DNA of 51,571 bases from Balneolales bacterium. Its GTDB lineage: Bacteria > Bacteroidota > Rhodothermia > Balneolales > Cyclonatronaceae. A program made the position numbers and the translations under genes. The notes beneath the pieces were generated by a model. It worked only from the letters and a program-made list of their open reading frames with translations, had not been told where the DNA came from and made no database searches. Shown here piece by piece: positions 12,642 to 35,950 of the stretch (its first letter is position 1; every line of letters begins with the position of its first letter). The stretch lies in the NCBI GenBank assembly GCA_020832405.1, contig JAFIET010000017.1:1-51571 (forward strand), read 5' to 3'.

Positions 12642-15600
12642 ATGAACTACTCATCAGGTAAAAAATCCGCTGTTAATTCTTTTTTGCCGCTGTTTCTGGC
12701 AGCGCTTTCAGTGGTTCTGTTTTCCTGCTCCTCAACTGAAGAGCCCGGAGATTTCCGCTTTGAGCGGCTCGATCCGCAGCAAACCAACCTGAATTTCACA
12801 AATGAGGTAATTGGCACCCCGGAATTTCACATCCTGAACTACCTCTATTTTTACGACGGCGGCGGCGTTGCGGTGGGCGACCTCAACAACAACGGACTGC
12901 CCGATATTTTCCTCACGGCCAACGACGGACCCAACCGCCTTTTCCAAAATCTCGGAGATTACCGCTTTGAGGACATCACCGAGCAGGCCGGCATCATTCA
13001 TCAGCCGGGCTCGTGGTCAACCGGCGTAACTATGGCCGACATAACCGGCAACGGCTACCTCGATATTTATGTGAGCCATTCGAACTATCTGGTAAAATCC
13101 GGCCGCAATCAGCTGTTCATCAACAACGGCGACATGACCTTCACCGAAATGGCGGCCGATTACGGCCTCGATTTTGAAGGCTACTCCACGCAGGCCGTCT
13201 TTTTTGATTACAACCGCAACGGCCGGCTCGATATGTTCCTGCTCAACCATTCCTTCCACAGCGACCGCACGCACGGTCAGGCCGAGCGGCTGCGGCAGGT
13301 TTTTGACCCCAAAGCGGGCGACCGCCTGTTCCGCAACGACGGCGACCGCTTCACCGATGTGTCGCAGGAAGCCGGCATCATCAGCAGCGCGCTGGGCTAC
13401 GGGCTTGGGGTTGCGGTAACGGACATCAACCTGAACGGCTGGCCCGATATTTATGTGGGCAACGATTTCCATGAGGATGATTACCTCTACATCAACAATG
13501 GCGACGGCACCTTCACCGAAATGCTGTACTCGGTTTTCGCACATACGAGCCGCTCGAGCATGGGCAACGATATCGCCGACCTCACCAACAACGGTTTTCC
13601 GGACGTGTTTTCTCTCGACATGATGTCCGAAGAGTACGAGGTGTACATGACCTCCGGCGGTCCCGACCTGTGGCCGATTGCACAGACCAAGCGGGATTTT
13701 GGCTTCGGTGCCAAAAACGCACGCAACACCCTGCAAATCAACCGCGGCAATGATGCCGACGGGATGCCGGTTTTCAGCGAGATGGCCTTTTCCCTGGGCC
13801 TGGCACGTACCGAGTGGAGCTGGGCTGCGCTGCTGGCCGACTTTGACAACAGCGGTTTTAAGGATGTGTTCGTAACCAACGGTATGCCGCACCGCCCGAA
13901 CGACCTCGACTTTGTAGCCCGGCTGCGCGTGCTGCGGCAACAGGCGCACCCGGAAGATATCGACCGGCTCGAGTTTGAAGCCATCAGCATGATGCCTCCG
14001 GTGGTGGTGCCCAACTACATGTACCGGAATCACGGCGGACTTCAGTTTGAGGATGTGAGCCGCGAATGGGGTTTCGGTCACGCCGTGGTTTCCAACGGGG
14101 CTGCGTACGCTGATCTCAATAACAGCGGCCGCCTCGATCTGATTGTTAGCAACATCAACGAACCCGCCCGGATTTACCGCAATACAACTGTGGTGGACAG
14201 CAGCGCGAACTTTCTGCGCGTGAGCCTGCGCGGCGAAGCGCCCAACACCGGCGGTATCGGCAGCAAAGTAATTTTATATGGCGGCGGACAGATTTTCTAT
14301 CAGGAGCAGATGCCGACCCGCGGCTTTCAGAGCTCGGTCGATCATCGCCTGCACTTTGGTTTGGGCAGCCTCACCGAAATTGACTCCGTGCTCGTGGTGT
14401 GGCCCGACTGGCGCTATCAGACCCTGCGCGGGGTTCAGGGCAATGCGCACATCACCCTACACCAAAACGAAGCCGCCGGACAGTTCGATTTCAGCCGTCT
14501 GCACCGCAGTTTTGACGACGCCCGCCTGCGCCCGGCCCCCGCTTCACGGCAGCCGGGTTTTGTGCATGAAGAAAACCGCTTTAACGATTTCAACCGGGAG
14601 CCGCTGATGCCCTACAAGCTCTCAACGCAGGGTCCGGCGCTTGCCGTAGCCGACGTTACCGGCAACGGACTCGACGACCTCTACATCGGCGGCGCTTTTC
14701 GGCAGCCGGGCCGCCTTTTCCTGCAGCAGTCCGACGGACGCTTTGTGGCCTCACAGACCGAACTTTTTGATCAGAATGCGCTGGGTGAAGACATCAGCGC
14801 TCTGTTTTTTGATGCAACCGGAAACGGCCTGCCCGACCTCTACGTGATGACCGGCGGCGGGCAGTTTGTGGATAATGAGGAGGTCCTCACCGACCGGCTC
14901 TACATTAATCAGGGCAACGGCCGTTTTACCTACGAGCCTGACCGGCTCCCGCTCATGTTCCTGAACGGAGGCGTTGTGAAGGCCGCCGATTTCACCGGAA
15001 ACGGCGCTCCCGATTTGTTTATCGGCAGCCGCTCGGTGCCCTGGGCCTACGGCTTTTCGCCCGGAAGCTATTTGCTGGCCAACGACGGTGAAGGAAATTT
15101 CAGCAACGTAACTGACAGCTGGTACCCCGATCTGCCGGAAATCGGCATGGTGACAGATGCGGCCTGGGCCGACCTCACCGGAAACGGACGCCCTGAGCTC
15201 ATTATAACCGGCGAGTGGATGTCCGTGAAAGTGCTCAGCCCGCAAGACGGCCGCATGACCGACATCACGGCGGAGCTGGGCCCCGGCGGATTTGGCGGCC
15301 TCTGGCAGCATGTGCGGATAGCGGACCTCACCGGAAACGGTGCGCCCGACATCCTGCTCGGGAATTTCGGTACCAACAGCAGGATGGAGGCTTCTCCGGA
15401 GCGGCCCTTCCACCTGCTTATCAATGAATTTGGCGACGACGGGCGGGAATCAGCGGTAATGGCGATCGAGCGCAACAACTCGCTCTATCCCTTCGACCGG
15501 CTGGAGGAACTGCTGCTCGAATTCCCGTTTCTGAATCAGCGGGTGAGCAGCTACCGCGATTTTTCAACCCGAGATTTGTTTCATCTGCTGGGCCGTACGC

Positions 15601-16004
15601 AGGTGCAGCAGGCCAAGCGGAAAAGCGTGCAACGCCTCGAGTCGGGTGCCTGGCTCAATGACGGAAACGGCCGTTTCAGCTGGCAGGCCTTCCCGATTGA
15701 AGCGCAGGCTTTCCCTGTATTCAGCTCAGCCGTTTGGGCCGATGAAAGCGGCCGCACAAACGTGCTGCTGGCCGGCAACCTGCACGCGGTGAAACCCGGA
15801 ACCGGCGGCAAGCAGGGTGCAGGTCAGGGTCTGCATCTGGTTTATGATGCCGAAAACGGCTTCGAAGTGCTTACGCTTCAGGAAAGCGGCTTTTTCGTGC
15901 GCGGCGAAACGCGACACCTCAGTTTCGTGAATGCTGCCCAAAACCGGAAACGCCTCATCGCGGTGCGCAACAACGACAGCGCCCTGCTGTTTGACCTGAA
16001 TTAG
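12642..16004 (+). CDS. Two-propeller VCBS/FG-GAP lipoprotein with central ASPIC/UnbV domain
   Basis: 1120 residues. The signal peptide ends in a lipobox with Cys29 (VVLFSC), followed by STEE, so a surface-exposed outer-membrane lipoprotein is likely. Residues ~45-520 form an FG-GAP/VCBS propeller with Ca-binding-loop-like repeats (GDLNNNGLPD near 78, DLTNNGFPD, DFDNSGFKD). Residues ~530-615 are an ASPIC/UnbV domain (RGFQSSVDHRLHFGLG ... WPDWRYQ). From ~625 a second propeller uses VTGNGLDD, FTGNGAPD and DLTGNGRPE. It is first in an operon with 16051, 19534 and 21343 (gaps of 46, 9 and 3 bp). No catalytic motif was recognised; glycan or protein binding is plausible but unproven. Confidence 0.9.
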   Translation: MNYSSGKKSAVNSFLPLFLAALSVVLFSCSSTEEPGDFRFERLDPQQTNLNFTNEVIGTPEFHILNYLYFYDGGGVAVGDLNNNGLPDIFLTANDGPNRLFQNLGDYRFEDITEQAGIIHQPGSWSTGVTMADITGNGYLDIYVSHSNYLVKSGRNQLFINNGDMTFTEMAADYGLDFEGYSTQAVFFDYNRNGRLDMFLLNHSFHSDRTHGQAERLRQVFDPKAGDRLFRNDGDRFTDVSQEAGIISSALGYGLGVAVTDINLNGWPDIYVGNDFHEDDYLYINNGDGTFTEMLYSVFAHTSRSSMGNDIADLTNNGFPDVFSLDMMSEEYEVYMTSGGPDLWPIAQTKRDFGFGAKNARNTLQINRGNDADGMPVFSEMAFSLGLARTEWSWAALLADFDNSGFKDVFVTNGMPHRPNDLDFVARLRVLRQQAHPEDIDRLEFEAISMMPPVVVPNYMYRNHGGLQFEDVSREWGFGHAVVSNGAAYADLNNSGRLDLIVSNINEPARIYRNTTVVDSSANFLRVSLRGEAPNTGGIGSKVILYGGGQIFYQEQMPTRGFQSSVDHRLHFGLGSLTEIDSVLVVWPDWRYQTLRGVQGNAHITLHQNEAAGQFDFSRLHRSFDDARLRPAPASRQPGFVHEENRFNDFNREPLMPYKLSTQGPALAVADVTGNGLDDLYIGGAFRQPGRLFLQQSDGRFVASQTELFDQNALGEDISALFFDATGNGLPDLYVMTGGGQFVDNEEVLTDRLYINQGNGRFTYEPDRLPLMFLNGGVVKAADFTGNGAPDLFIGSRSVPWAYGFSPGSYLLANDGEGNFSNVTDSWYPDLPEIGMVTDAAWADLTGNGRPELIITGEWMSVKVLSPQDGRMTDITAELGPGGFGGLWQHVRIADLTGNGAPDILLGNFGTNSRMEASPERPFHLLINEFGDDGRESAVMAIERNNSLYPFDRLEELLLEFPFLNQRVSSYRDFSTRDLFHLLGRTQVQQAKRKSVQRLESGAWLNDGNGRFSWQAFPIEAQAFPVFSSAVWADESGRTNVLLAGNLHAVKPGTGGKQGAGQGLHLVYDAENGFEVLTLQESGFFVRGETRHLSFVNAAQNRKRLIAVRNNDSALLFDLN

Positions 16005-16050
16005 ATTTTTTAATGAGATTCATCACACTTCCCTAAAGACCCGATTATTG

Positions 16051-19000
16051 ATGCATTTGCTACGAATCAGCGCGGTTGTTTTTTTAATGCTGAGCCTGCT
16101 CGCGGCCTGCGGCAGTCAGGAACCGGAACGTCCCGGACCAGAGTCAGACGCGTACCTGCGGGCTGTCTCCGATTTTTTTGTGAGTCTTGCTGCCGCCCAA
16201 ACCGACGAAGCGCGCTTCGCCTTCAATAAAATGAACGATGTGGCGCGTGCCTGGCCGCAGGAAGCCGCCGCATGGGCCAACCTGGGCGTGTATGCGATGC
16301 GGCAGGGCAACTTCGATCTTGCGGGTCAGCGTATGGAGCAGGCGCGCCAAGCGGCGCCGGGGCACCCGGATATTTTGTGGCTTTCGGGCATGTACTACAG
16401 CAGGCGCGGGGATGTGGCACAGGCCATCACCTACTTCCGTGAGGCGGCTGAGGCTTCCCCCGAAAACCCGCGCATCTGGTTCTCGCTGTTCACCGAGCTC
16501 GAACGGCAGGACGACACCGCCAATGCCGAAGAAATCATGCGGGTGCTGGCGCAGCTTAAGCAGCTGGAGCCCGGCAATCAGGCCGTTTGGTACGAGTCGG
16601 CCCGGATCGCCAACCGCAACCGACTGCAGGCAGAGCTTTCAGAAGCGCTCAGCCGGCTCGGCGAACTGCAGCAGGGCTGGGATGATGACGCCCGCGCACA
16701 GCTGGAAATGCTCTCAGGTTTTGCAGCGGAAGGCGATTTTTCGGAAATCACCTTCGAACTGGTCTTCCTGCGCAGCATGATTGAACCGACGCCTGTATTT
16801 CAGGATGATGTGCTTCGGATTCAGTTTCCGCCTACCGAAGTCGGTTTCCTTATCACGGAGTTTATCTGGCTGCCGCGCCCCGTTTTTCAGGTTGCCGCGC
16901 CGGACCTTGGCGTTCGTTTTCATCCGCAGACGCCCGAAAGCTTCTCGCAGGCAAGCCTGCTGAAGGCCGCGACCCTGCTCGAAGAATTTCCGCCCTTCAC
17001 CGTGCACATTACCGGCGGCGAGCTCGTGCTTGATGCCGAAACCCGCCTGCCGTTTCCCGGCAGCACCGACGGACTGCTGCATCCTGCTGTAATGGCTGAA
17101 ATTGATTTTAACTACAATTTCCGAAACGATATTGCGCTGGCCGCTGAGGGCGGCTTCCGGCTGTACCGGCAGGAAGAGGACCGAAGTTTCACCGATGTAA
17201 CAGTCACGCTCGGGCTTCCGGCTGCGGTGCGCAACGGCAGCTATCACGGCGTCTGGCCCGCTGATGTGGACCTTGACGGCGACCTGGATCTCATCCTCGC
17301 GCCTCAAAACGGTGCGGCTTTCGCGCTCATCAATCAGTCAGACGGCACTTTCGGCCGGCAGAATCTTTTTCCGCAGGCGCAGAACGTGCGGGATGTGCGC
17401 TGGGCCGATTTCAACGGAGACGGCGCTGCCGACGGCGTTTTTCTTCAGGATGACGGGCGCCTGGTGATGTACCGCAACCTCACGGGCAACGAGTTTGTGA
17501 TGCCCGAGGGCTTCCCGCTGGTTGAGGATGCGGCGGCCATCGCCGTGGGTGACCTCAATGCCAACAGCTACTTCGAAATTGTGTTTGCAACGCAGAACGG
17601 TGCCGTCGAAGCGCTTCGGTACGAGCCCCGCTACGACCGCTGGAACCGAATCCGGCTGTTTGATGCGCCCGGAAACACATCCCCCTACACCCCCGCGCGA
17701 ACCACGCTTTTTGTGGCGGACATCGACAACAACGGAAGTCTTGATGTGGTGCTTTCGACGCCCGAAAACACGCGGGTGCTGCTGAGCGACTCCGATTTTG
17801 CCTTCACGGCGCTCGACCTGCCGGATTTTGGCTGGGTGACCTCTGTTTACGATGTGGACGGCAACGAGCGGCTTGATCTGATCGGGGCAACGGCTTCGGG
17901 TGAAGCGGTTGAGTGGATGAACAGGGGTACAAAAAATTATAACGCCTACTCGCTGCGGGCCCGCGCCTCGGGGCTTGAGGGGGATGCGCGCATCAACACT
18001 TTCGGGATTGGCGGCGAGATGGAAATCCGCTCCGGGCTGCTGTATCAGAAGCAGCTCATCAGCTCGCCCATTGTGCATTTTGGTCTGGGGACTTACGAGG
18101 AAGCGGAAATGCTGCGGATCATCTGGCCGAACGGCTCGGTGCAGGCGGAGTTCGCCGAACTTGGGCTCGGCTCCACCATTTTCAACGAGCAGGTGCTCAA
18201 GGGGTCCTGCCCGTGGCTGTTCACCAACGACGGGGAGGAGATTCATTTCATCACCGACCTCATCTGGCGCTCGCCCCTCGGGCTGCGCATCAACGCCATG
18301 GAAACCGCAGGCGTGATTCAGACTGAAGACCGGGTCCGTATTCCGGCGGGTCTGCTTCAGGAAGTGGACGGGGTTTACGACATCCGCATCACCGCTGAGC
18401 TCTGGGAAACGCACTATTTTGATTACATCAGCCTGATTGCGGTTGATCACCCGGCCGGCTCGGAGCTCTTTATTGATGAGCGCTTTGTCTTCCCCGCCCC
18501 CGATCTGACCGAACGCCTGCTCACCGGCCCGGTGCCGGTTGCGGCAGTCCGCGATATGCACGGCCGCGACCTTAGCGCGACGGTTTCACAGCAGGACGGG
18601 CAGCACATCGCGCCCTTCCGCAAAACCAAATTTCAGGGACTCGTACAGCCGCACTACATCGAAATCGAGTTGGGCGATTCCGTTGACCGGGGCGAAGGGG
18701 AGTGGCTGGTGCTGCAGGGATGGCTGCGGCCTACTGACAGCTCCATCAACCTGATGCTCAGCCAAAGCAGCATCGCGCCCCCGACCGGCCTCCGGATTGA
18801 GGTTGCTGACGGCCGCGGCGGCTGGCAGACGCTGCACGAAAACTACGGCATACCGGCGGGCAAGCAGAAAAGCATCCTGCTTGACCTCACGGGCGCTTTC
18901 CCCGATGAAAGCGACCGCAGGCTGCGCATGCACACCACCTCTGAAATTTACTGGGATGCAATCCGCAAAGCGGCGCGTTTGCCGGATGCGCAAATGGCAA

Positions 19001-19524
19001 AACGCGAACTTACGGCTGAGCGCATGGAACTGCGTTACCGCGGCTTCTCCCGCTGGAATCACGCCGACAGCCTGCTGCCGAACATGCCCGACTATGCTGA
19101 AATTACGAGTACGAATCAGCGCTGGCGCGACCTCGAAGGCTTCTACACCCGCTTCGGCGACGTAAGCGAGCTGCTGGCTGAAACCGACGACCGCTACGTA
19201 ATCATGAACGCAGGCGATGAAATGGTGATTGAATTTGCATCGCCCGGCGCTCCGGAGGCCGGCATGCAGCGCAGCTTCATTCTGGTGAATACGGGCTGGG
19301 TGAAGGACGGCGACTTCAACACCGAGGCCGGTATGACGGTGCTGCCCCTGCCGTATCACGGGCAGGCCGATTACGAGTACAACCGCGGCGGCCGCCTGCA
19401 GGACGACCCCGTTTTTCAGCGCTTCCCCGAAGACTGGGTGAACTTCCACACCCGCTACATCACCCCGGAAGCTTTCCGGGCAGCCCTGCTGCTCAACCCC
19501 GATTCCCGACGTGAAAACAACTGA
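16051..19524 (+). CDS. TPR-VCBS-ASPIC/UnbV lipoprotein with large unassigned C-terminal region
   Basis: 1157 residues from the ATG at 16051 (a TTG precedes it directly). Lipobox Cys20 (SLLAAC) marks a lipoprotein. Residues ~65-150 contain TPR units (WANLGVYAMRQGNFDLAGQR, then YYSRRGDVAQAITYFREA). Residues ~350-640 hold propeller repeats (DVDLDGDLD, DFNGDGAAD, DIDNNGSLD). An ASPIC/UnbV domain follows at ~648-715 (IGGEMEIRSG ... IIWPNGSVQAEF). The last ~440 residues, starting GSCPWLFTNDGEEIHF, are unlike the other paralogues and I do not recognise them. The architecture differs clearly from its neighbours while staying in the same tight operon, suggesting a distinct role such as scaffold or partner binding. 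Confidence 0.88.
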   Translation: MHLLRISAVVFLMLSLLAACGSQEPERPGPESDAYLRAVSDFFVSLAAAQTDEARFAFNKMNDVARAWPQEAAAWANLGVYAMRQGNFDLAGQRMEQARQAAPGHPDILWLSGMYYSRRGDVAQAITYFREAAEASPENPRIWFSLFTELERQDDTANAEEIMRVLAQLKQLEPGNQAVWYESARIANRNRLQAELSEALSRLGELQQGWDDDARAQLEMLSGFAAEGDFSEITFELVFLRSMIEPTPVFQDDVLRIQFPPTEVGFLITEFIWLPRPVFQVAAPDLGVRFHPQTPESFSQASLLKAATLLEEFPPFTVHITGGELVLDAETRLPFPGSTDGLLHPAVMAEIDFNYNFRNDIALAAEGGFRLYRQEEDRSFTDVTVTLGLPAAVRNGSYHGVWPADVDLDGDLDLILAPQNGAAFALINQSDGTFGRQNLFPQAQNVRDVRWADFNGDGAADGVFLQDDGRLVMYRNLTGNEFVMPEGFPLVEDAAAIAVGDLNANSYFEIVFATQNGAVEALRYEPRYDRWNRIRLFDAPGNTSPYTPARTTLFVADIDNNGSLDVVLSTPENTRVLLSDSDFAFTALDLPDFGWVTSVYDVDGNERLDLIGATASGEAVEWMNRGTKNYNAYSLRARASGLEGDARINTFGIGGEMEIRSGLLYQKQLISSPIVHFGLGTYEEAEMLRIIWPNGSVQAEFAELGLGSTIFNEQVLKGSCPWLFTNDGEEIHFITDLIWRSPLGLRINAMETAGVIQTEDRVRIPAGLLQEVDGVYDIRITAELWETHYFDYISLIAVDHPAGSELFIDERFVFPAPDLTERLLTGPVPVAAVRDMHGRDLSATVSQQDGQHIAPFRKTKFQGLVQPHYIEIELGDSVDRGEGEWLVLQGWLRPTDSSINLMLSQSSIAPPTGLRIEVADGRGGWQTLHENYGIPAGKQKSILLDLTGAFPDESDRRLRMHTTSEIYWDAIRKAARLPDAQMAKRELTAERMELRYRGFSRWNHADSLLPNMPDYAEITSTNQRWRDLEGFYTRFGDVSELLAETDDRYVIMNAGDEMVIEFASPGAPEAGMQRSFILVNTGWVKDGDFNTEAGMTVLPLPYHGQADYEYNRGGRLQDDPVFQRFPEDWVNFHTRYITPEAFRAALLLNPDSRRENN

Positions 19525-19533
19525 TGGTGTAAG

Positions 19534-21339
19534 ATGAACCGACAAAAAATTGCCCAAATCGGAATTACCGTTCTATTCGTTGGCCTGCTCATGGTCCCCA
19601 TGGGGATGCGGCAACTCGACCGCGGTCCGGAATTATTTGAAAACAAAGAAGATGCGATAGCGCGCTACGGGTTTTTCCTTGAGGACGTGACTGAACAGAT
19701 CGGGGTGAATTTTGTGCATCAGCGTCCGGGGCTTGATGCAAGGCTTGAGCACATCCTGCCGCAGATTTCTTCGGTCGGGGCATCGGTAGCAGTGGCTGAC
19801 TTCAACAACAACGGACTTCCGGATTTTTACCTGACCAACAGCCTGTTTGGTTCACCCAACGCGCTGTACCGCAACAACGGCGACGGCTCCTTCACCGATG
19901 TGGCCGAAGAAATGGGCGTTGCCTTTGTAAATAATGAGGAAAACGGCGTTTCGATGGGATCGGTTTGGGGAGATTTCAACAACTCGGGCTACGAAGACCT
20001 GCTGATTTACAAATGGGGCCGGCTGCAGCTTTTCCGGAATGAGAACGGCCTGGGTTTTACGGATGTGACCGCGGAGTCGGGTCTGGCACAGTCCGGCTGG
20101 ATGAATGCAAACACGGCCGTTTGGCTCGACTACAACGGCAACGGATTTCTTGACTTATTTGTAGGCGGTTATTTCCATGAAGACGTCAATTTCTGGAATC
20201 TGGAACATACCCGCATTATGCCGGACAGTTACGAATATGCGACCAACGGCGGCCGGAACTATCTGTTTGAAAATCAGGGGGACGGTACCTTTATTGATGT
20301 GACCGAGCAGGCCGGTCTGCTTATTTCCCGGCGCTGGACACTGGCCGCTGCCTCAGCGGATCTGAACCGGTCCGGTTTCCCGGACCTGATGCTGGCCAAC
20401 GACTACGGCGTTGATGAGCTGTTTCTGAACAACGACGGCACCGGATTTGTGAATGCAGGCGAAACGGCAGGGCTGGGCTTCATCCCCAAAAGCGGCATGA
20501 GTGTCGGCTTTGGAGACGTGCTGAATCAGGGTCAGCTGGCAATTTACATCACCAATATTTCAGAAGCCGGAGTGCTGATGCAGGGCAACAATTTGTGGGT
20601 GCCTTCGCGGCGCTCAAGCGGGGAGCGGCTGCGCTTCCGCAACCTTGCAAGTAACATGGGCGTTGAAATCGGCGAGTGGGGCTACGGCGGACGCTTCGTG
20701 GATCTCAACAACAACGGATTTGTGGATTTGTACGTGGCAAACGGCTACGTTTCCGATACGCCTGACACCGATTACTGGTACGACTACGCCAAAGTGGTCG
20801 GGGGCAACCGCGCCATCATTATGGATGCGAATAACTGGCCGGCGATGGAAGGCCGCACTTTTTCGGGCTATCAGTTCAACAAAATCTGGATGAACGACGG
20901 GGCAGGCCGCTTCCGGGAAGTAGCCGCAGCGGTGGGAGGGCAGCTTCAGCTCGACAGCCGCTCCGTTGCTTATGCTGACCTGTTCGGAACGGGCTCGCTG
21001 GATCTCATAGTGGCGAGTCAGAACGGGCCGGTACGCATTTTTAAGAATCACGCAAACTCTGAAAACAACTGGGTTGCGTTCAGTCTTACAGGCTCGGCAA
21101 GTAACCGCAGTGCAATCGGCGCGCAAATTACCATTGAGTGGGAGGGCGGCCGGCACCTGAAAACTGTCAATGCCGGAGATGCTTTCAGTTCACAGAGTCA
21201 GCGTCCGCTGCATTTTGGAATCGGTACAGCAAAAAAAATTGAAAGAGCCGAAATTATCTGGCCTTCTGGCGCAGTTCAAATACTTGATAATCCTGAATTA
21301 AACATGACTCATTACATCACTGAACCTGACGTACTTTAA
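19534..21339 (+). CDS. CRTAC1-like protein: single propeller plus C-terminal ASPIC/UnbV
   Basis: 601 residues. A hydrophobic N-terminal helix (IAQIGITVLFVGLLMVPMGM) without lipobox cysteine suggests an inner-membrane anchor or an uncleaved signal facing the periplasm. One FG-GAP/VCBS propeller spans ~60-510 (DFNNNGLPDFYLTN, DYNGNGFLDLFVGG, DLNRSGFPDLMLAN, DLNNNGFVDLYVAN), then the ASPIC/UnbV domain at ~520-590 (HFGIGTAKKIERAEIIWPSG). This is the compact CRTAC1 layout, half the size of the neighbouring lipoproteins. It starts 9 bp after the TPR gene and ends 3 bp before the RnfD-like gene, so the two membrane-linked products are probably made together. Confidence 0.9.
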   Translation: MNRQKIAQIGITVLFVGLLMVPMGMRQLDRGPELFENKEDAIARYGFFLEDVTEQIGVNFVHQRPGLDARLEHILPQISSVGASVAVADFNNNGLPDFYLTNSLFGSPNALYRNNGDGSFTDVAEEMGVAFVNNEENGVSMGSVWGDFNNSGYEDLLIYKWGRLQLFRNENGLGFTDVTAESGLAQSGWMNANTAVWLDYNGNGFLDLFVGGYFHEDVNFWNLEHTRIMPDSYEYATNGGRNYLFENQGDGTFIDVTEQAGLLISRRWTLAAASADLNRSGFPDLMLANDYGVDELFLNNDGTGFVNAGETAGLGFIPKSGMSVGFGDVLNQGQLAIYITNISEAGVLMQGNNLWVPSRRSSGERLRFRNLASNMGVEIGEWGYGGRFVDLNNNGFVDLYVANGYVSDTPDTDYWYDYAKVVGGNRAIIMDANNWPAMEGRTFSGYQFNKIWMNDGAGRFREVAAAVGGQLQLDSRSVAYADLFGTGSLDLIVASQNGPVRIFKNHANSENNWVAFSLTGSASNRSAIGAQITIEWEGGRHLKTVNAGDAFSSQSQRPLHFGIGTAKKIERAEIIWPSGAVQILDNPELNMTHYITEPDVL

Positions 21340-21342
21340 TCC

Positions 21343-22436: not shown

Positions 22437-22457
22437 AAGCGCTTACATTTATCTTTC
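22437..22457 (+). promoter_or_regulatory. LacI-type operator with -7-like element (distal susC promoter)
   Basis: AAGCGCTT (22437-22444) matches the LacI core AANCGNTT and is followed by TATCTTTC (22450-22457), one base away from TAnnTTTG. The same order, AAAGCGCTT then TTTATCT, occurs on the minus strand in front of lacI near 7108-7085. Confidence 0.4.
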
Positions 22458-22621: not shown

Positions 22622-22640
22622 AAGCGCTTTTATATATTTG
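22622..22640 (+). promoter_or_regulatory. LacI-type operator overlapping candidate susC promoter
   Basis: AAGCGCTT (22622-22629) is followed after three bases by TATATTTG (22633-22640), a full match to the Bacteroidota -7 element TAnnTTTG. A repressor here would sit in the promoter spacer. The -33 TTTG is weak. The implied leader is about 105-120 nt. Confidence 0.5.
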
Positions 22641-27484: not shown

Positions 27485-27528
27485 AGAAAGGAAGCGCGGT
27501 TTTTTACTGCGTTTCCTTTCTCTTTTTT
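27485..27528 (+). terminator. Rho-independent terminator after susD
   Basis: A 13 bp stem with a single G-U pair (AGAAAGGAAGCGC at 27485-27497 with GCGTTTCCTTTCT at 27509-27521), an 11 nt loop and a following TCTTTTTT tract. It lies 58 bp after the susD stop and separates susCD from the next VCBS gene. Confidence 0.9.
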
Positions 27529-27626: not shown

Positions 27627-30600
27627 ATGAAGGAAACACGACCAGGTTTTTTCGGTTTATTGCTGAGCCTCCTGCTGCTTCTCGGGTACGCCTGCCAAAG
27701 CGCTCCGGAGACGGATTTTTTATTTGAGAAGATGGATAACGAATCTGTTGGCATTCGCTTTGACAATCAGCTGTTTCCTACCGAAGATTTCAACATGTAC
27801 ATCTTCCGTAATTTTTATAACGGAGGAGGGGTAGCTGCGGGCGATCTTTCCGGCAACGGGCTGCCTGATTTATTCTTCACCGGAAACATGGTTTCCAACC
27901 GTCTTTACCTCAATCACGGAGATTTTGTGTTTGAGGATGTAACCGAACAGGCCGGGCTGCTTTCCGAAGGCTACTGGAGTACCGGCGTAAGTTTTGCCGA
28001 TGTAAATGGCAACGGCCTCCTCGATATCTTTGTAGCCCGCTCAGGACCGGAAGGCGGGGAGAAGCGGCCGAACCGGCTCTACATCAATAACGGCGACCTC
28101 ACCTTTACCGAGCAGGCCGCGGAGTGGGGCATAGCCGATACCGGACTCTCAACACATGCTGTTTTTTTTGACTACGACGGCGACGGCCTTCCCGATCTGT
28201 ATCTCGTAAGCAATTCCTTCCATAATCTTGAAAGCTTTGCGGGCGTAACGGCACAAGCACGTTCGGTTCCCGATCCGCTTGGGGCTTCTAAGCTTTACCG
28301 CAACGAGGGCGGTTTTTTCCGGGAGGTTACGAATGAAGCCGGGATTTATAGCAGTGCCATCGGCTTTGGGCTGAGTGCGGTCGCGGCTGACATCAACCGG
28401 AACGGGCTGCCGGATCTGTACGTGGCTAACGATTTCTTCGAGCGGGACTACCTCTACCTCAACAACGGCGACGGTACCTTCACCGAGAGCCTGGAACAGC
28501 TGCTGCCTTCCATCAGCTTCAGTTCAATGGGTACCGACATTGCCGACCTCAACAACGACGGATGGCCCGAAATTTATGTTACGGATATGCGGCCGGTCGG
28601 GCAGGAGCGCCTCCGCTCAAAGATGACGATCGAAACCCGGGAAGAATACCTGCGCAATTTGGAGCGCGGTTTCCATCATAAATACACCCGAAATACGCTG
28701 CAGCTCAATCTTGGCGGCGATCGTTTTGCCGAGATCGGACGTTTCACCGGTACCGAGGCCACCGAATGGAGCTGGGCAACGCTCATGGCAGACTTCAGCC
28801 TGAACGGCTTCAACGACCTTTTTGTGGCCAACGGCATTTACAACGACCTGCTCGATCAGGATTACATCGAACTTGTTGCAAACCCCGCCCGCATCCGCGA
28901 AATGATCAGAAGCGGTCAGGAGAATGTAATCCTGAATCTGCTCGGCGATATGAGCTCGGTGCCGGTCAGCAACATGATGTTTTCCAATTCCGGCAATCTG
29001 AATTTTGAGGAAGTAAGTCGTGAATGGGGGCTGAATCACCCGGCCTTTTCGACCGGCGCAGCCTGGGCCGATCTGAACGGTGACGGGGCCCTGGATCTGG
29101 TTGTCAGTAATGTGAACGGGCCTCCTATGATTTACCGAAACAGGGTACGCGAGCTGCACCCGGAGCGTACGTTTTTGCGGATTGATTTAAGGGGTGATAC
29201 GCCCAACACGCAGGCCCTCGGGGCACAGTTGCATGTTTATGCGGGGGATGATTACTGGTACCGCGAGCATACCCTTCAGCGGGGATTTCAGTCGTCGGTA
29301 GAGCCGGGTTTGTTTGTGGGCACGGGTGATGCGGTACGGGCTGATTCCCTTGTGTTGCGCTGGCCCGACGGCCGCACGAGCCGGCTGCGGGATGTCACGC
29401 TCCCTGCACGCATCGTGTTGCGGCAGTCAGATAGCAGCAGCCTCGACCCGCCCGCACCCGCCGAAGCCCGTATGCCCGGTCAGGCAGTGCTTGCCGGTTC
29501 CGCTACCTGGGAAACTGTGAAAGCAGGTGAAGATTTTGAGCAGCCCCATCAGCCGTTTTCTTACAATGATTTTGAGCGGGAGCAGCTGCTGTTTAAAATG
29601 CGCTCAACTGAAGGCATTGCCGCATGTACGGGGCAACTGACGGCGGATGGTCCCTTGGTTGTATATCTCGGCGGGGCACGTAATCAGCCCGGGCGTTTGC
29701 TTGCAGAACAGCCTGACGGCCGTTTCCGTAGTGAACAGAAGGAGTTGTTCGGCCAACACGGCCTCTCGGAGGATACTGACTGCCTCTTTTTTGATGCTAC
29801 CGGCAATGGTGCCGACGATCTTTACGTGGTGAGCGGCGGCGCCTCTTTTTCGGCAACCTCATCGGCACTGCGGGACCGCCTCTACATGAACGACGGCACC
29901 GGAAATTTTACGCTGACTAACCAAATGCTGCCGTCGTCAGCGCGCTTTGAATCAGGCTCGGTTGTAAAGGCTCATGACTTTACCGGAAACGGCCGCAACG
30001 ACTTGTTCGTGGGTACGCGCTACCGGCTTTTTGCGTACGGCATGGCTGCATCATCCTATCTGCTTGAAAATATAGGTGATGGCCGCTTTCGGGATGTTAC
30101 TGAAGCATGGCTGCCGCAGCTGCGCACCGCCGGCATGGTGACAGCTGCGGAATGGGCTGACCTCACCGGAAACGGGCAGCACGAACTCATTCTGACAGGC
30201 GAATGGATGCCGGTACGGGTATTTCGGAATACCGGCAGCAGCTTCACGGAAATCACTGCTGAGCTGGGGCTTTATGAAACTTCCGGCTGGTGGACATCCC
30301 TCTATATTGCAGATTTGGATGGCGACGGCCGCCCTGACATTATCGGCGGAAATCACGGGCTTAACAGCGTGTTCCGTGCCTCTGCTGAGCGGCCGGTGCA
30401 GATGGTGGTTACGGACCTCGACAACAACGGACTGCTCGATCACCTCATCGCTATGCCGGATGCCGGCGGCACCTATTACCCGCTCGTGCTCCGCCCGGAA
30501 TTCATGCAGGCGGCGCCGGGTTTTCGGGAGCGCTACCCGACACACGCCGCCTTTGCGGCTGCAAATCTCGAGGCCCTACTCCGTGATGTCCCCGACGACC

Positions 30601-31016
30601 GGCAGCTGCGCCATAAGGCGGAAATGCTTGCTTCGGTCTGGTTCCGGAACACCGGCAGCGGCTTTGAGGCCGTTCCGCTTCCTGCAGCCGCACAGCTTGG
30701 TCCCGTTTACGGCATTGCCTCTGGCGACTTTACCGGCAGCGGCCGTACTGAACTGCTGCTCGGCGGAAACCTGTTCGATGTGAAGCCACAAACCGGGAAA
30801 TATGATGCCCTTAGCCCGGTCATTCTATTTTATGAACCTGACTGCGGCTGCCTCCAAAGCCTGCCCGCGCACAAAGCCGGCGTAGAAGCCGGGGGCGAAG
30901 TCCGCGGGATAAGGCTGTTTCCGGCCCTTGATGATACCTCAGCCCCGGGTTTGCTCATCACAAGATGGGGCGAAAAACCACTGCTTTTCCGGCGCACTGA
31001 TACTACCTACCCTTAG
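27627..31016 (+). CDS. Two-propeller VCBS/FG-GAP lipoprotein with central ASPIC/UnbV domain
   Basis: 1129 residues with lipobox Cys23 (LLGYAC), then QSAPETD. Layout matches the 12642 protein: propeller 1 at ~40-510 (GDLSGNGLPD, DVNGNGLLD, DINRNGLPD, DLNNDGWPE), ASPIC/UnbV at ~525-600 (RGFQSSVEPGLFVGTG, RWPDGRTSRLRD), propeller 2 from ~660 (DATGNGADD, DFTGNGRND, DLTGNGQHE, DLDGDGRPD). It is clearly closest to the 32576 protein, sharing the opening NFYxGGGVA and the EWSWAtLmADF segment. It starts 200 bp after susD beyond the terminator, so it has its own promoter. Role inferred only as a surface binding or assembly protein of the SusCD locus. Confidence 0.9.
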   Translation: MKETRPGFFGLLLSLLLLLGYACQSAPETDFLFEKMDNESVGIRFDNQLFPTEDFNMYIFRNFYNGGGVAAGDLSGNGLPDLFFTGNMVSNRLYLNHGDFVFEDVTEQAGLLSEGYWSTGVSFADVNGNGLLDIFVARSGPEGGEKRPNRLYINNGDLTFTEQAAEWGIADTGLSTHAVFFDYDGDGLPDLYLVSNSFHNLESFAGVTAQARSVPDPLGASKLYRNEGGFFREVTNEAGIYSSAIGFGLSAVAADINRNGLPDLYVANDFFERDYLYLNNGDGTFTESLEQLLPSISFSSMGTDIADLNNDGWPEIYVTDMRPVGQERLRSKMTIETREEYLRNLERGFHHKYTRNTLQLNLGGDRFAEIGRFTGTEATEWSWATLMADFSLNGFNDLFVANGIYNDLLDQDYIELVANPARIREMIRSGQENVILNLLGDMSSVPVSNMMFSNSGNLNFEEVSREWGLNHPAFSTGAAWADLNGDGALDLVVSNVNGPPMIYRNRVRELHPERTFLRIDLRGDTPNTQALGAQLHVYAGDDYWYREHTLQRGFQSSVEPGLFVGTGDAVRADSLVLRWPDGRTSRLRDVTLPARIVLRQSDSSSLDPPAPAEARMPGQAVLAGSATWETVKAGEDFEQPHQPFSYNDFEREQLLFKMRSTEGIAACTGQLTADGPLVVYLGGARNQPGRLLAEQPDGRFRSEQKELFGQHGLSEDTDCLFFDATGNGADDLYVVSGGASFSATSSALRDRLYMNDGTGNFTLTNQMLPSSARFESGSVVKAHDFTGNGRNDLFVGTRYRLFAYGMAASSYLLENIGDGRFRDVTEAWLPQLRTAGMVTAAEWADLTGNGQHELILTGEWMPVRVFRNTGSSFTEITAELGLYETSGWWTSLYIADLDGDGRPDIIGGNHGLNSVFRASAERPVQMVVTDLDNNGLLDHLIAMPDAGGTYYPLVLRPEFMQAAPGFRERYPTHAAFAAANLEALLRDVPDDRQLRHKAEMLASVWFRNTGSGFEAVPLPAAAQLGPVYGIASGDFTGSGRTELLLGGNLFDVKPQTGKYDALSPVILFYEPDCGCLQSLPAHKAGVEAGGEVRGIRLFPALDDTSAPGLLITRWGEKPLLFRRTDTTYP

Positions 31017-31048
31017 CATTTATAAACCTTTATTTCGATCTTAATCTG

Positions 31049-31636
31049 ATGCAAAAACTACCTGTTACCAGCTTTCTTTTTAGTTGTGTGCTTTTTTTTC
31101 TGATCGCTTTTACTGCGTGCACAGAACCAAAGCCTGTCACTTTCGAATCGCTTGTGGAGGAAGGGCTTCAGTCAGGTGAGCGGCACGACAGCCTGTTTCT
31201 TGGATATTATTTCGGAATGAGCCGGCAGGATTTTCAGACTTCAAGCTGGGAAATGAACCGCCGGGGACTCATCAGCGGTCTTACAAAGGTGGAGTATGTA
31301 AACAGTGACTGGCTCCCCTTCGAAGCTTACATCGAGTTTTTTCCGGATTTTGAAGACGGGCTTATCTACAGGATTCCGATGGATGTGCACTACCGCGACT
31401 GGGCACCGTGGAATCAGGACCGGTTTTCGGATTCACTCGCGGTAGATATTGCCGCATACTTTTCGGAGGTTTATGGGCAGGATTTCCACTGGGTCCATAT
31501 CCCTGAAGCGAATCGGTCCGGCTGGGTAAGCGTGAGGGGTAACCGCGCGATTTCCGTATGGCGCCGTGATGATATGTTGGTTCGGGTCGTTTTTCGCGAT
31601 CTCACCGTAAAGCCGGAGACAACGGCTGGGGGGTAA
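31049..31636 (+). CDS. Small lipoprotein of unknown function
   Basis: 195 residues with lipobox Cys24 (IAFTAC) and mature start TEPKPVTFESLVEEG. The mature part is rich in aromatic and acidic residues (FEAYIEFFPDFEDGLIYRIPMDVHYRDW) and shows no motif I recognise; a small alpha/beta fold is likely. It lies 32 bp after the VCBS gene and ends seven bases before the KilA-N start, so it is probably co-transcribed. It may be an accessory of the VCBS lipoproteins. Confidence 0.75.
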   Translation: MQKLPVTSFLFSCVLFFLIAFTACTEPKPVTFESLVEEGLQSGERHDSLFLGYYFGMSRQDFQTSSWEMNRRGLISGLTKVEYVNSDWLPFEAYIEFFPDFEDGLIYRIPMDVHYRDWAPWNQDRFSDSLAVDIAAYFSEVYGQDFHWVHIPEANRSGWVSVRGNRAISVWRRDDMLVRVVFRDLTVKPETTAGG

Positions 31637-31642
31637 GTGGTT

Positions 31643-32455
31643 ATGGCACAGAAAAAAAGCATCCATGTAAAAGGGACAGCGATTGCTGTGATGAAAAAAA
31701 ATGAGCTTGACTATATGTCACTCACCGACATGACGGCAGGTTTCAAAGAAGGAAGCGGTCTGATCGGAAAATGGATTACCAACAAAAATACACTGGAGTA
31801 TCTGGGCATTTGGGAACAATTGAATAACCCCGATTTTAATTACACCGAATTCGGGGTAATTGAACAGGAAGCCGGTGTGAACCGGTTTATTATGTCAGTT
31901 GGTCAGTGGGCTGAAAGAACAAGTGCCACCGGGCTAATTGTGAAGGCCGGAAGATATGGAGGCACATACGCCCATAAAGACATTGCTTTTCACTTTGCCA
32001 TGTGGCTCAGCCCCGAATTTCAAATTTATCTGATTAACGAATTCCAGCGTCTGAAAGAAGAAGAACAAAAGCTGCTGGGCTGGAGTGCAAAACGCGAACT
32101 TGCAAAACTTAACTACCATATCCACACAGATGCCATAAAGCACAATCTCATTCCAAAGGTACTAAGCCCCGCTCAGGTTTCCCTCGTGTATGCCTCTGAA
32201 GCGGATGTGCTGAATATGGCACTATTTGGAAAAACAGCAAGACAATGGCGGGAAGAAAATCCGGACAAAAAAGGAAACTTGCGTGATTATGCAAGCATGA
32301 ACGAGTTGATTTGCCTTGCTAATATGGAAAACCTGAATGCTGTATTCATTCAGGAACAAATCCCCCAGGAAGAGCGTCTGTTAAAACTCAATCAGATAGC
32401 TATACATCAAATGAAAGTTTTGTTTGATGCTGAAAACAGAAAACTTTTAAAATGA
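31643..32455 (+). CDS. KilA-N domain protein
   Basis: 270 residues from the ATG at 31643, preceded by a strong G-rich ribosome site; a GTG two codons earlier is possible. The N-terminal half is a KilA-N domain: MSLTDMTAGF, then LIGKWITNKNTLEYLGIWE, and GGTYAHKDIAFHFAMWLSPE near residue 115, followed by a charged linker. KilA-N domains come from phage and large-virus DNA-binding proteins; chromosomal copies are common in Bacteroidota with unknown roles. The gene is AT-richer than its neighbours and sits between two VCBS lipoprotein genes, so it looks acquired. No phage structural genes are near. Confidence 0.85.
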   Translation: MAQKKSIHVKGTAIAVMKKNELDYMSLTDMTAGFKEGSGLIGKWITNKNTLEYLGIWEQLNNPDFNYTEFGVIEQEAGVNRFIMSVGQWAERTSATGLIVKAGRYGGTYAHKDIAFHFAMWLSPEFQIYLINEFQRLKEEEQKLLGWSAKRELAKLNYHIHTDAIKHNLIPKVLSPAQVSLVYASEADVLNMALFGKTARQWREENPDKKGNLRDYASMNELICLANMENLNAVFIQEQIPQEERLLKLNQIAIHQMKVLFDAENRKLLK

Positions 32456-32575
32456 TACGGTATGACGGTGCCAGGAATATTTATGGAAATCTTGTAACCG
32501 CACAAAACGGGTGTTCAGCCGCCACAAAAAAGTCGCCATTTAGTTTGTTGACCCTCACACCTTACTCCCTTTTCT

Positions 32576-35500
32576 ATGCTATCCAAGTCACACCTTATTT
32601 CAGTTTCTTTTCTCCTCAAGGTAGCAGCCTTGTGTATTTTTATGGCCTGCTCCCGGCAGGCTGAGCCGGATGTTGCCCCTGATCCGCTTTTTGAATGGCT
32701 GTCGCCGGAAGTGACCGGTATTGATTTTGAAAATCGACTCGAATATTTGTCAAACTTCAATATTTACACCTACCGCAATTTTTATGACGGCGGAGGGGTG
32801 GCCGTGGGCGATCTCAGCGGAAACGGTTTGCCGGATATCTATTTCATCAGCAATATGGGGCCCAACCGGCTGTATTTTAATCAGGGGGATTACCGCTTTG
32901 TGGATGTGACCGACGAAGCGGGCGTTGCCGGAACCCGGCGGTGGTCAACAGCGGCGGCGCTGGTTGATATCAACGGGAACGGGCTGCTCGATATTTATGT
33001 GACCAACTCGGGCAAGCTCGATGATGCAACAAATGAGCTGTTCATCAACAATGGCGACGGAACTTTTACCGAGCGCGCGGCGGAATTCGGTCTGGACGAC
33101 CCCGGCTTTGGGATTCAGGCCTATTTCTTCGATTATGACGGCGACGGCCTGCCCGATATGTTTCTGATAAATAACGAAGATCAGGCCATTTCTTCTTTCG
33201 ATCTGAGCAACTTGCAGCGCTACGAGCGGGACTTTCCTGGCGGCGACCGCCTGTTTCGTAATGAAGGCGGCTTTTTTAGGGATGTAACGGAGGAAGCCGG
33301 CATCCTGAGCAGCATCATCGGCTTTGCGCTGAGCGCTGCGGTGTCGGACCTGAACCGGAACGGCCTGCCGGATATTTTTGTGGCCAACGATTTCTTCGAG
33401 CGCGACTACATTTACATGAACAACGGCGACGGCACCTTTACCGAAGTTGGCGGCGATGAGCGCGTGATCCGGAGCATGAGCGCAGCCTCCATGGGCTCCG
33501 ATATCGCCGACCTGAACAACAACGGCTGGCCCGATATTTATGTGTCGGATATGCTGCCGTTCAAGGATGAGCGTATCAAAACGGTTACGCTCTTCGAAGA
33601 CTGGGACCGCTACCGGGAAAAAGTGGAATGGGGCTACGGGCATCAGTTTACGCGGAATGTGCTGCATCTGAATCAGAACGGCACGCATTACAAGGAAGTG
33701 AGCAGGCTTACCGGTACGGAGGCGACCGACTGGAGCTGGGCGGTGCTGCTGGCCGATTTCGACCACAATGGCTTCAACGATATTCTGGTAACCAACGGCC
33801 TGGTGCAGGACATCACCAATGTGGATTATCTGGGTGAAATTTCAGATCAGGAAACGATGCGGGCGGTGATACGGCAAGAGGGCGTGGATTTTCAGCAGCT
33901 GATTGATATGATCCCCTCGCAGAAGGTGCGCAATGTGATGTTTGCCAATAACGGCCGCCTGAATTTTGAGGACATCACCGTGGCATGGGGGCTGGGGGAG
34001 CCGACTTTTTCCAGTGGTGCGGCATGGGCCGACCTGAACGGTAACGGCGCCCTTGATCTTGTGATCAGCAATGTGAATCAGCCGTCTCGGATTTACCGCA
34101 ACCGCGTGAATGAGCTGCACCCGGAGCGAAGCTGGCTTCGGATTGATCTCGAAGGGGAGGGGCACAACACGCAAGCCATCGGGGCGCAGCTTCAGCTGTG
34201 GGGCGGGGGGCAGCAGTGGTTTCGGGAGCATTTCCTGCAGCGCGGGTTTCAGTCGAGCGTGGAGCCTGGCTTTTTTGTGGGGCTGGGTGAGCTGAACCGC
34301 ATCGACTCGCTGGTGGTGCGCTGGCCGGACGGGCGGACAAGCCGCATGCAGGATATCGACGTACCGGCCCGGATTTCGCTCTCCCAAAAGCAAGGAGAAA
34401 GCCGTGGGGAACCGCTGCCGGGGCCTGCCATAGTTGACCGTGATGCGCACGAAGTTCCCCCCAAAAAATTCGAAAAGCTGGAAAATACCGGGCTTTCGTT
34501 CAGGCATCTGCGGCATCCTTACTCGGATTTTCAGCGGGACCGGATGCTGTATCAGATGCGCTCGACGGAGGGGCCGGCGATGTGTACGGGCGATGTGACC
34601 GGCAACGGGCTGGATGATGTGTATGCGGGCGGGGCACGAAATCAGGCCGGGCAGCTTTTTTTGCAGGGGGGCGACGGGCGTTTTGAGGCCTCGGGCACGG
34701 ATTTTTCGGCGCATGCAAGCTCCGAAGATATCGCCTGTTTGTTTTTTGATGCAACCGGCAACGGGCTGATGGATTTGTACGTGGTAAGCGGCGGGAACAG
34801 CCATGGCTCGGCCTCGGCGGCGCTGCTCGACCGGCTTTACCTGAACCGTGGTAATGGCGCGCTGGTGCACAGCGGTCAGCCGCTGCCGCTGCCCGCGCGG
34901 CCGGTGTCTGGCTCGGTGGCCGTGTCTGCCGATTTTACGGGCAATGGCCATGCCGATTTGTTTGTGGGCACGCGGCTTCGGCCTTTTGCGATAGGCGTAC
35001 CAGCCGATTCGTACCTGCTTGAGGGCGACGGCACCGGGCAGTTCCGCGACGTGACGGCGGATGTGATGCCGGGGCTTACGGCCATCGGCATGGTGACGGA
35101 TGCGGCCCTCGGAGATGTGACCGGCGACGGCAGGCCGGAGCTGGTAGTGGTGGGCGAGTACATGCATCCGCGGGTGTTTGCGCGGCGCGGGGCGGCCTGG
35201 ACGGACATCAGCGGCGAGCTGGGGCTGCAGGCGTACACTGGCATCTGGTACAGCGTGCTGCTGGCGGATGTAACCGGCAACGGCCGCCTGGATATTGTGG
35301 GCGGGAATCACGGCCTCAACAGCCTGCTGCGCGGCACGCCGGAGCGCCCGCAGCGGATGTGGGTGGGCGATTTTGAGCAGGATGGAATTGTGAATCAGAT
35401 TCTGGCTATCAATCAGCCGGATGGGGTATTTCCGCTTATTTTGCGGCACGATCTGCTGGATGAGGTGCCGGGACTGGCGGCGAAGTATCCGGATTATGCG

Positions 35501-35950
35501 AGCTTCGGCGGACAGCAGGTGACCGACATTTTTACCCGTGATCAGCTGGATGCGGCCATTTTGCTGGAGGCAGCGGAGCTGGGGAGTGTGCTTTTCCGAA
35601 ACGAAGGGGAGGCGGGTTTCCGGGCGGAGCGGCTTCCGCTTCGGGCGCAGTTCGGGCCGGTGTTCGGGCTGGCAGCGGCGGACCTTACGGGCGACGGGCG
35701 CTCAGAGATTTTGCTGGGGGGAAACCTGTTCGAGGTGCGTCCGCAGCAGGGTCCCTACGACGCGCTGCGGGGCACGGTGCTGCGCTTTGATGCGGAGCGC
35801 GATCAGCTGCTGGCTTACCCCGCCGATGCTACGGGCTTCGATGTGTTTGGTCAGCTGCGGCAGCTGCGCGTGGTACGCACCTCAGACGGAAGTCTGCGCG
35901 TGATAGCCGCGCGCTATGATGATGAGGTTTTGATTTTTGGGGTGGAGTGA
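32576..35950 (+). CDS. Two-propeller VCBS/FG-GAP lipoprotein with central ASPIC/UnbV domain
   Basis: 1124 residues with lipobox Cys25 (CIFMAC), then SRQAEPD. Propeller 1 at ~45-515 (GDLSGNGLPD, DINGNGLLD, DLNRNGLPD, DLNNNGWPD), ASPIC/UnbV at ~530-600 (RGFQSSVEPGFFVGLG, RWPDGRTSRMQD), propeller 2 from ~650 (DVTGNGLDD, DATGNGLMD, DFTGNGHAD, DVTGDGRPE). It is the sister of the 27627 protein and likely arose by duplication, with the small lipoprotein and KilA-N genes now between them. DNA toward its 3' end is more G-rich than the rest of the island. It is the last gene of the island; no terminator is obvious after it. Confidence 0.9.
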   Translation: MLSKSHLISVSFLLKVAALCIFMACSRQAEPDVAPDPLFEWLSPEVTGIDFENRLEYLSNFNIYTYRNFYDGGGVAVGDLSGNGLPDIYFISNMGPNRLYFNQGDYRFVDVTDEAGVAGTRRWSTAAALVDINGNGLLDIYVTNSGKLDDATNELFINNGDGTFTERAAEFGLDDPGFGIQAYFFDYDGDGLPDMFLINNEDQAISSFDLSNLQRYERDFPGGDRLFRNEGGFFRDVTEEAGILSSIIGFALSAAVSDLNRNGLPDIFVANDFFERDYIYMNNGDGTFTEVGGDERVIRSMSAASMGSDIADLNNNGWPDIYVSDMLPFKDERIKTVTLFEDWDRYREKVEWGYGHQFTRNVLHLNQNGTHYKEVSRLTGTEATDWSWAVLLADFDHNGFNDILVTNGLVQDITNVDYLGEISDQETMRAVIRQEGVDFQQLIDMIPSQKVRNVMFANNGRLNFEDITVAWGLGEPTFSSGAAWADLNGNGALDLVISNVNQPSRIYRNRVNELHPERSWLRIDLEGEGHNTQAIGAQLQLWGGGQQWFREHFLQRGFQSSVEPGFFVGLGELNRIDSLVVRWPDGRTSRMQDIDVPARISLSQKQGESRGEPLPGPAIVDRDAHEVPPKKFEKLENTGLSFRHLRHPYSDFQRDRMLYQMRSTEGPAMCTGDVTGNGLDDVYAGGARNQAGQLFLQGGDGRFEASGTDFSAHASSEDIACLFFDATGNGLMDLYVVSGGNSHGSASAALLDRLYLNRGNGALVHSGQPLPLPARPVSGSVAVSADFTGNGHADLFVGTRLRPFAIGVPADSYLLEGDGTGQFRDVTADVMPGLTAIGMVTDAALGDVTGDGRPELVVVGEYMHPRVFARRGAAWTDISGELGLQAYTGIWYSVLLADVTGNGRLDIVGGNHGLNSLLRGTPERPQRMWVGDFEQDGIVNQILAINQPDGVFPLILRHDLLDEVPGLAAKYPDYASFGGQQVTDIFTRDQLDAAILLEAAELGSVLFRNEGEAGFRAERLPLRAQFGPVFGLAAADLTGDGRSEILLGGNLFEVRPQQGPYDALRGTVLRFDAERDQLLAYPADATGFDVFGQLRQLRVVRTSDGSLRVIAARYDDEVLIFGVE

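Follow-up and report, generated by a model that had tools for sequence, protein, structure and literature searches.

In Sus-type polysaccharide utilisation loci of Bacteroidota, surface lipoproteins occupy the SusE/F position behind a SusC-SusD pair. The locus described here lies on a 51,571-nt stretch of DNA (the window) from a Balneolales bacterium with a 3.96 Mb genome (assembly GCA_020832405.1, contig JAFIET010000017.1). It holds a tandem SusC-SusD pair, as expected of a polysaccharide utilisation locus, likewise followed by predicted surface lipoproteins in the SusE/F position. Unlike in the Sus type, these are CRTAC1-like double propellers (PA, PD and PE; Table 1), no surface enzyme is recognised, and LacI-type sites are found instead of hybrid two-component system (HTCS) or extracytoplasmic function (ECF) control. 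The closest described sucrose system is the sux CUT (carbohydrate utilisation with TonB-dependent receptor) locus of Xanthomonas campestris, in which, in the part of the report consulted, a TonB-dependent receptor, an intracellular amylosucrase-family enzyme, an inner-membrane sugar transporter and a repressor serve sucrose uptake (PMC1790865). Compared with this partial account, the window similarly has a GH13 enzyme of the amylosucrase/sucrose hydrolase family and an inner-membrane sugar transporter, but SusC/SusD replace SuxA, the transporter is an SSF symporter and a PfkB kinase is present (PMC1790865). Also unlike the sux locus as far as that account describes it, susCD here stands 11 kb from the GH13 gene, after a 586-bp gap, in a transcription unit of its own and in the company of five propeller genes.

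Two further likenesses concern the propellers themselves. On plasmid SGLP1 of Streptomyces globisporus C-1027 (NZ_CP013739.1), homologues of PC (UnbV) and of the membrane protein behind it (UnbU) are adjacent and in the same order, whereas the cassette there differs from the window, where a TPR-propeller gene (PB) precedes the pair and SusCD follows it, and where neither a DUF1702 gene nor an enediyne polyketide synthase was found among the 30 open reading frames (ORFs) scanned by Pfam, a search confined to the window. The structure of mouse CRTAC1 (Protein Data Bank (PDB) 9etn) matches part of the PA model; unlike CRTAC1, PA, PD and PE have a second propeller and a lipid anchor.

We hold with moderate confidence that this is a locus for the uptake of a soluble sugar, in which double-propeller lipoproteins replace the usual surface binding proteins, and that sucrose is the likeliest substrate in this genome. 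PA, PD and PE, in SusE/SusF-type positions, would hold the sugar at the cell surface without acting on it, SusC/SusD would import it across the outer membrane, the SSF symporter would carry it across the inner membrane, and its breakdown in the cytoplasm would fall to the GH13 enzyme and the PfkB kinase. The LacI regulator would control the symporter operon, a LacI-type site common to wider carbon metabolism would control susCD, and PB, PC and UnbU would form a separate envelope module (UnbV-UnbU).

The sucrose genes form a LacI/symporter/PfkB/GH13 cassette (5944-11833) which ends about 0.8 kb before PA, with symporter, PfkB and GH13 on the strand of PA. The top PDB matches of the GH13 protein are amylosucrases along its length (E about 1e-207), and it retains DAV, KSEA and SHDD blocks, which we take to have a catalytic role. 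Its N-terminus has no signal peptide by eye, so that sucrose, its likely substrate, would have to enter the cell intact. The top NCBIfam model for the kinase is fructokinase, at a score far under the cut-off of that model. No polymer-degrading enzyme was recognised among the ORFs scanned, which hold only this signal-less GH13. A sequence-only reading of this DNA had announced a SusC/SusD locus with no degradative enzyme. Its statement that no glycosidase is encoded holds only inside 12642-35950, and its headline falls with the GH13 gene just outside these limits, since LacI-type sites, some of them belonging to a wider carbohydrate regulon, are common to susC and the neighbouring degradative gene set, an observation which that reading had itself named as speaking against it. 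Claims of missing enzymes such as this one hinge on where the boundaries of a locus are drawn. One of the two explanations that it had offered, uptake of something that needs no cleavage, is favoured by the adjoining enzyme, which would act on imported sucrose.

All five propeller genes are where the sequence-only reading had placed them (1120, 1158, 601, 1129 and 1124 aa), and its count of 1157 residues for PB holds from the ATG at codon 2, the frame of 1158 aa having a TTG start. Matches to FG-GAP and ASPIC/UnbV exceed the Pfam cut-offs in all five, and family profiles bear out the SusC/SusD pair. The shared plan of propeller, ASPIC/UnbV and propeller applies to PA, PD and PE, as modelled for PA, and does not extend to PB, which has a different one. 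In the PA model (pLDDT 84.6, pTM 0.86), the best PDB match by Foldseek is CRTAC1 with a TM of 0.76 by target over 617 columns, and the other 49 among the best 50 of 405 matches (E <=0.001) are generic multi-propellers with TM <=0.30; the CRTAC1 fold was examined for PA and PB only, and all five proteins pass PF07593 and FG-GAP_3 by sequence. PA, PD and PE have a lipobox cysteine in common, which is invariant in 17/17 aligned close relatives, and a lipobox-like pattern occurs in 58 of 72 PA-type proteins from 40 loci across the phylum, compared with 2/72 at a control place. The position and the lipobox of a lipoprotein that follows SusD are found here. A binding role is favoured on the grounds of position, anchor and fold, and we favour PA, PD and PE as putative surface binding proteins; in this way the common FG-GAP/VCBS proteins beside SusD would gain a testable role.

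The recurrence of such propellers with SusCD in related genomes, which the sequence-only reading had made its test, was found. Of 198 genomes sampled across the phylum, 61 have PA-type proteins (E <=1e-80), and for 40 of these 61 one neighbourhood each was taken. In 22 of the 40 loci the propeller chain comes immediately after SusD, and some SusD and some SusC were seen in 31 and 35 respectively; the SusD profile derives from close relatives and overlooked at least one further SusD family, so that the SusD counts are lower bounds. Within the order, 42 of 92 ASPIC matches lie <=12 kb from a SusD match (11/12 in G043, with a chance fraction of about 0.15, and 4/7 in G001, with 0.03), based on 138 SusD places used after exclusion of the weakest listed and all unlisted ones. 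The same architecture has other enzymes for neighbours elsewhere, which are GH65, glucoamylase-like or GH116-like, or an arabinofuranosidase with GH3 (as annotated). Neighbour clusters in the 40 loci include SSF (6), GH65 (6), GH116/MGH1-like (4), glucoamylase (3) and GyrI-like (8), each named from one representative; the scan covered 10 of the 12 recurring clusters. On a Hymenobacter plasmid, LacI, the arabinofuranosidase, SusC and SusD are accompanied by the GH3 gene and by a propeller that shares 38% identity with PA; in another Bacteroidota locus (L168), UnbV-UnbU occurs with SusCD, two double propellers and a GH65-cluster gene. A PAP2/haloperoxidase-like protein, its cluster likewise named from one representative, recurs beside SusCD-double propeller loci (16 of the 40, L155-L194), and none was seen in the window locus. 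A 1242-aa protein elsewhere in the same genome (L025, C111, 9792-13514) has two ASPIC/UnbV matches and a different propeller plan, and open frames of similar length with two such matches occur in several relatives.

Conservation of the whole arrangement was followed in five congeners. G001 has the genes from LacI to PE on one contig and in unchanged order, lacking the KilA-N gene; most genes are 83-97% identical, LacI, PD and the 195-aa lipoprotein are less so (70-77%), and a small ORF before PA is 40% identical. Both units are also present in G003 and G005; in G002 and G004, which complete the set, neither a GH13 nor an ASPIC match was found.

The LacI-type sites suggest how the two units could be connected. 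The perfect palindrome before the symporter (motif 1, TGCAAACGTTTGCA) has one exact copy in the genome, and its core is retained before the symporter in G001, G003 and G005. The core AARCGYTT has nine copies in the window, five of which are intergenic and belong to three promoters: two at the symporter, one upstream of PA (AAACGTTT) and two at susC, both of the form AAGCGCTT (motif 2). None of 3000 dinucleotide shuffles of the three promoters reached five such sites (mean 0.2), for a motif that was picked after the sites were seen; because of this, conservation is the real test of the sites. Both site types are present in the symporter promoter of this genome, G001, G003 and G005, and the susC promoter carries at least one site in this genome and in all three congeners having the locus. 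More widely, sites lie upstream of susC in 10 of 13 loci with SusC behind UnbU (13 sites in 8.65 kb, with about one expected); two of the 13, L077 and L110, repeat G003 and G005, which leaves 8/11 additional loci. As for a repressor with shared operators, motif 1 was found at the symporter only, and motif 2 is shared but genome-wide. We infer from these sequences that susCD may have control in common with carbohydrate use generally, and with the sucrose cassette specifically only via the type 2 sites.

Several observations weigh against the sugar-uptake reading. Motif 2, written as AAGCGCTTWYA, has 45 strand hits genome-wide, compared with 10 for the reversed control, and some of these (by eye, at the 12 loci inspected) are near PFK-, glycerol kinase-, alpha-amylase- and GH57-like genes, so that motif 2 is not sucrose-specific. 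The susC promoters of L084, L097 and L099 are without a LacI-type site. The site upstream of PA is unconserved, being present in this genome and G003, absent from G001 and G005, and found in 0/15 loci. In G003 and G005, separate contigs carry the sucrose cassette and the propeller/SusCD unit, and the cassette is thus unlinked in two of the four genus genomes having both units. GH13 was found in only six of 20 further UnbU-bearing genomes, and elsewhere the unit must therefore serve another substrate. The culturable relative Rhodohalobacter sulfatireducens has PA, the trio, SusCD and PD, and gave no match to the GH13. SusD is not directly before the propellers in 18 of the 40 phylum loci, and 14 of the 72 PA-type proteins lack the lipobox-like pattern. 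An association between a symporter directly upstream of PA and the presence of GH13 (4/4 in G005, G233, G239 and G242, compared with 0/6 in G234, G236, G240, G241, G244 and G246) was post hoc and was set aside; G003 has GH13 with no symporter directly upstream of PA.

Comparison of these sequences indicates that PB, PC and UnbU are a module separate from PA, PD and PE on the same stretch. The window UnbU is 28% identical to that of C-1027 over 192 aa (E 8e-15), PC matches the C-1027 UnbV with a pairwise E of 2e-47, and on the plasmid the two counterparts lie between DUF1702 genes and the polyketide synthase, ordered as they are here. An alignment scan of genome contigs with UnbU gave 40 loci, mostly from Balneolaceae, with the remainder titled Acidobacteria, Planctomycetota, Burkholderiales, Betaproteobacteria, Gemmatimonadetes and Actinomycetota. 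A PC-like gene is directly before UnbU in 37 of them (L082 and L085 are cut there and L090 has none) and a PB-like gene is within the stretch in 32, several others being cut by contig ends. SusC is directly behind UnbU in 13, all of them Balneolia-type or unplaced Bacteroidetes records. The description of the propellers as built around the SusCD pair applies to PA, PD and PE, and not to PB and PC, whose module stood without SusCD in other phyla within the stretch seen. The names UnbV, UnbU and UnbL are presumably those of the C-1027 plasmid genes; UnbV and UnbU are, to our knowledge, conserved proteins of enediyne clusters without an assigned function, and the phyla carrying the trio are not known to us for enediyne chemistry. 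Our guess is that the trio is an envelope-spanning scaffold or a redox module. A classical RnfD was rejected for the UnbU homologue (NCBIfam rnfD 24.4 compared with a cut-off of 207.05 bits, and a profile search with one weak PDB RnfD match, E 0.09), and no other Rnf subunits were found among the ORFs scanned. The ASPIC match of PB is narrow (27.1 bits, cut-off 23.4). For PB, Foldseek lists aldos-2-ulose dehydratase (4a7y, TM 0.29 by target), integrins and PVL-type propeller lectins (TM by target at most 0.48), matches too weak to support a hidden enzyme or any other conclusion.

It has to be considered whether PB, UnbV and UnbU, joined by the AsnB-like enzyme and in many cases by radical SAM and flavin enzymes, are instead an uncharacterised envelope system that makes or handles a small molecule or a modified component, with the sucrose genes and SusCD as mere neighbours. 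This seems rather unlikely to us. The presence of UnbV-UnbU, in most cases along with PB, in records titled Acidobacteria, Planctomycetota, Burkholderiales and Actinomycetota would be consistent with it, as would the pair on the enediyne plasmid and the sighting of SusC/SusD beside UnbV-UnbU only in Bacteroidota, but carbon use is indicated by the LacI-type sites found at susC, at the symporter and at carbohydrate genes. The AsnB, radical SAM and flavin genes lie just beyond PE. AsnB homologues occur in five of 59 genomes of the order, all five among the eight with UnbU, and in 0/51 without detected UnbU (Fisher 1.1e-5, a phylogenetically uncorrected value from related genomes); the UnbU search covered only the 20 genomes of the order in which ASPIC passed the cut-off, leaving aside G006, where the ASPIC match is weaker, and 38 that have no ASPIC match. 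Similarly, AsnB was found in 17 of the 20 further UnbU genomes, in counts likewise uncorrected, although stop codons interrupt two of the 17 matches and one is incomplete, and G003, G030 and G057 have UnbU without an AsnB match. In location, these genes adjoin UnbV-UnbU in L101 and GH13 in G232 and G239, and AsnB is 6 kb from propellers in G043 but about 200 kb from the trio in G001. A flavin-type gene is also near UnbU in an Acidobacteria metagenome-assembled genome. Radical SAM is within the stretch in 11 of 20 AsnB loci but was not seen in the other nine (flanks <=1.5 kb). No polyketide synthase was found among the ORFs scanned, no precursor peptide was evident in the gaps read near these genes, and AsnB had no match on plasmids.

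The sucrose genes, the propeller/trio unit and the AsnB unit are pairwise neighbours in different genomes and all three stand together here, which suggests a functional link among them. A tentative possibility that follows the same lines is that PB-UnbV-UnbU and the AsnB-like enzyme are an undescribed and widespread envelope system, that enediyne producers use the same pair, and that Balneolaceae have fused this pair with SusCD and double-propeller lipoproteins into one machine that serves uptake and spans the envelope. A literature search, which covered few subscription journals, returned no paper on a UnbV-UnbU module with an AsnB partner. A three-gene module with such a partner in a genetically testable sugar locus would be a simpler place to learn the function of UnbV and UnbU.

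Instead of sucrose itself, the target could be a sucrose-containing oligosaccharide or a fructan, with an extracellular enzyme encoded elsewhere, which we regard as improbable. SusCD pairs usually take oligosaccharides, the genome has seven SusD matches and glycosidase-like genes share motif 2 (by eye), but no fructan-type glycosidase was found by Pfam among the 30 ORFs of the window, to which the search was confined. The other explanation of the sequence-only reading, catalysis by the propellers that has escaped recognition, here taken as the depolymerisation of a glycan at the cell surface, is very improbable: no surface enzyme is recognised in the locus, the proteins are large and conserved, and some SusE-like proteins may be enzymes according to the part of one report consulted (PMC8211771), but the PA model matches CRTAC1 best and otherwise, among its best 50 matches, generic propellers, the invariant residues look by eye like the Asp/Asn/Gly pattern of the repeats and structural aromatics, and related loci encode recognised enzymes beside their propellers.

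Table 1. Genes and candidate regulatory sites of the locus, in order along the window (G001, G003 and G005 are congeners).
Feature	Position	Strand	Basis or remark
LacI-family regulator	5944-6990	-	Pfam LacI/Peripla_BP_3; divergent from symporter; conserved in G001, G003, G005
LacI-type operator TGCAAACGTTTGCA (motif 1)	7046-7059		perfect palindrome before symporter
LacI-type core AAGCGCTT (motif 2)	7100-7107		symporter promoter
SSF Na+:sugar symporter	7212-8825	+	Pfam SSF; nearest PDB relatives sodium/glucose cotransporters
PfkB sugar kinase, fructokinase-like	9030-9902	+	Pfam PfkB
GH13, amylosucrase/sucrose hydrolase family	9902-11833	+	PDB amylosucrase 1g5a, E 1.6e-207
LacI-type core AAACGTTT	12549-12556		upstream of PA
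PA, double-propeller lipoprotein with ASPIC/UnbV	12642-16004	+	Pfam, alignment, model
PB, lipoprotein: TPR, propeller, degenerate ASPIC, beta-rich C-terminal part	16048-19524	+	gene 1 of the trio
PC, UnbV homologue, single propeller and ASPIC	19534-21339	+	N-terminal membrane anchor (by eye) in place of lipobox
UnbU homologue, NqrB/RnfD-family membrane protein	21343-22167	+	PF03116 33.8 bits, cut-off 27.7
LacI-type core AAGCGCTT	22437-22444		susC promoter
LacI-type core AAGCGCTT	22622-22629		susC promoter, conserved
SusC	22754-25846	+	NCBIfam TIGR04056 656.7 bits, cut-off 368.25
SusD lipoprotein	25871-27427	+	Pfam SusD_RagB; PDB 3jys, 3ck7
PD, double-propeller lipoprotein	27627-31016	+	SusE position
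Small lipoprotein, conserved family	31049-31636	+	195 aa; no Pfam match
KilA-N domain gene	31637-32455		between small lipoprotein and PE
PE, double-propeller lipoprotein	32576-35950	+
Flavin-dependent monooxygenase/halogenase-like	36884-38422	-
Radical SAM protein, distantly RaSEA-like	38582-39493	-
AsnB-like enzyme	39483-40874	-	asparagine synthase-like; Pfam match over synthetase part only

Three genes of Table 1 had gone unlisted in the sequence-only reading, namely the RnfD/NqrB-like membrane protein, the small lipoprotein and the KilA-N gene. The small lipoprotein is kept in G001, G003 and G005, and its family also occurs in four of the 40 phylum loci, from distant Bacteroidota, beside double propellers (L161, L171, L176 and L185). 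The KilA-N gene has no counterpart at the matching place in the three congeners and is probably an insertion. A scan of the window for promoters and terminators stayed at about the level of shuffled sequence, apart from one terminator-like hairpin of 16 pairs (27485-27521), which has a T run and lies between susD and PD. Further downstream, a histidine kinase (45124-47850) with a weak SSF-like N-terminal match adjoins a response regulator (44582-45076).

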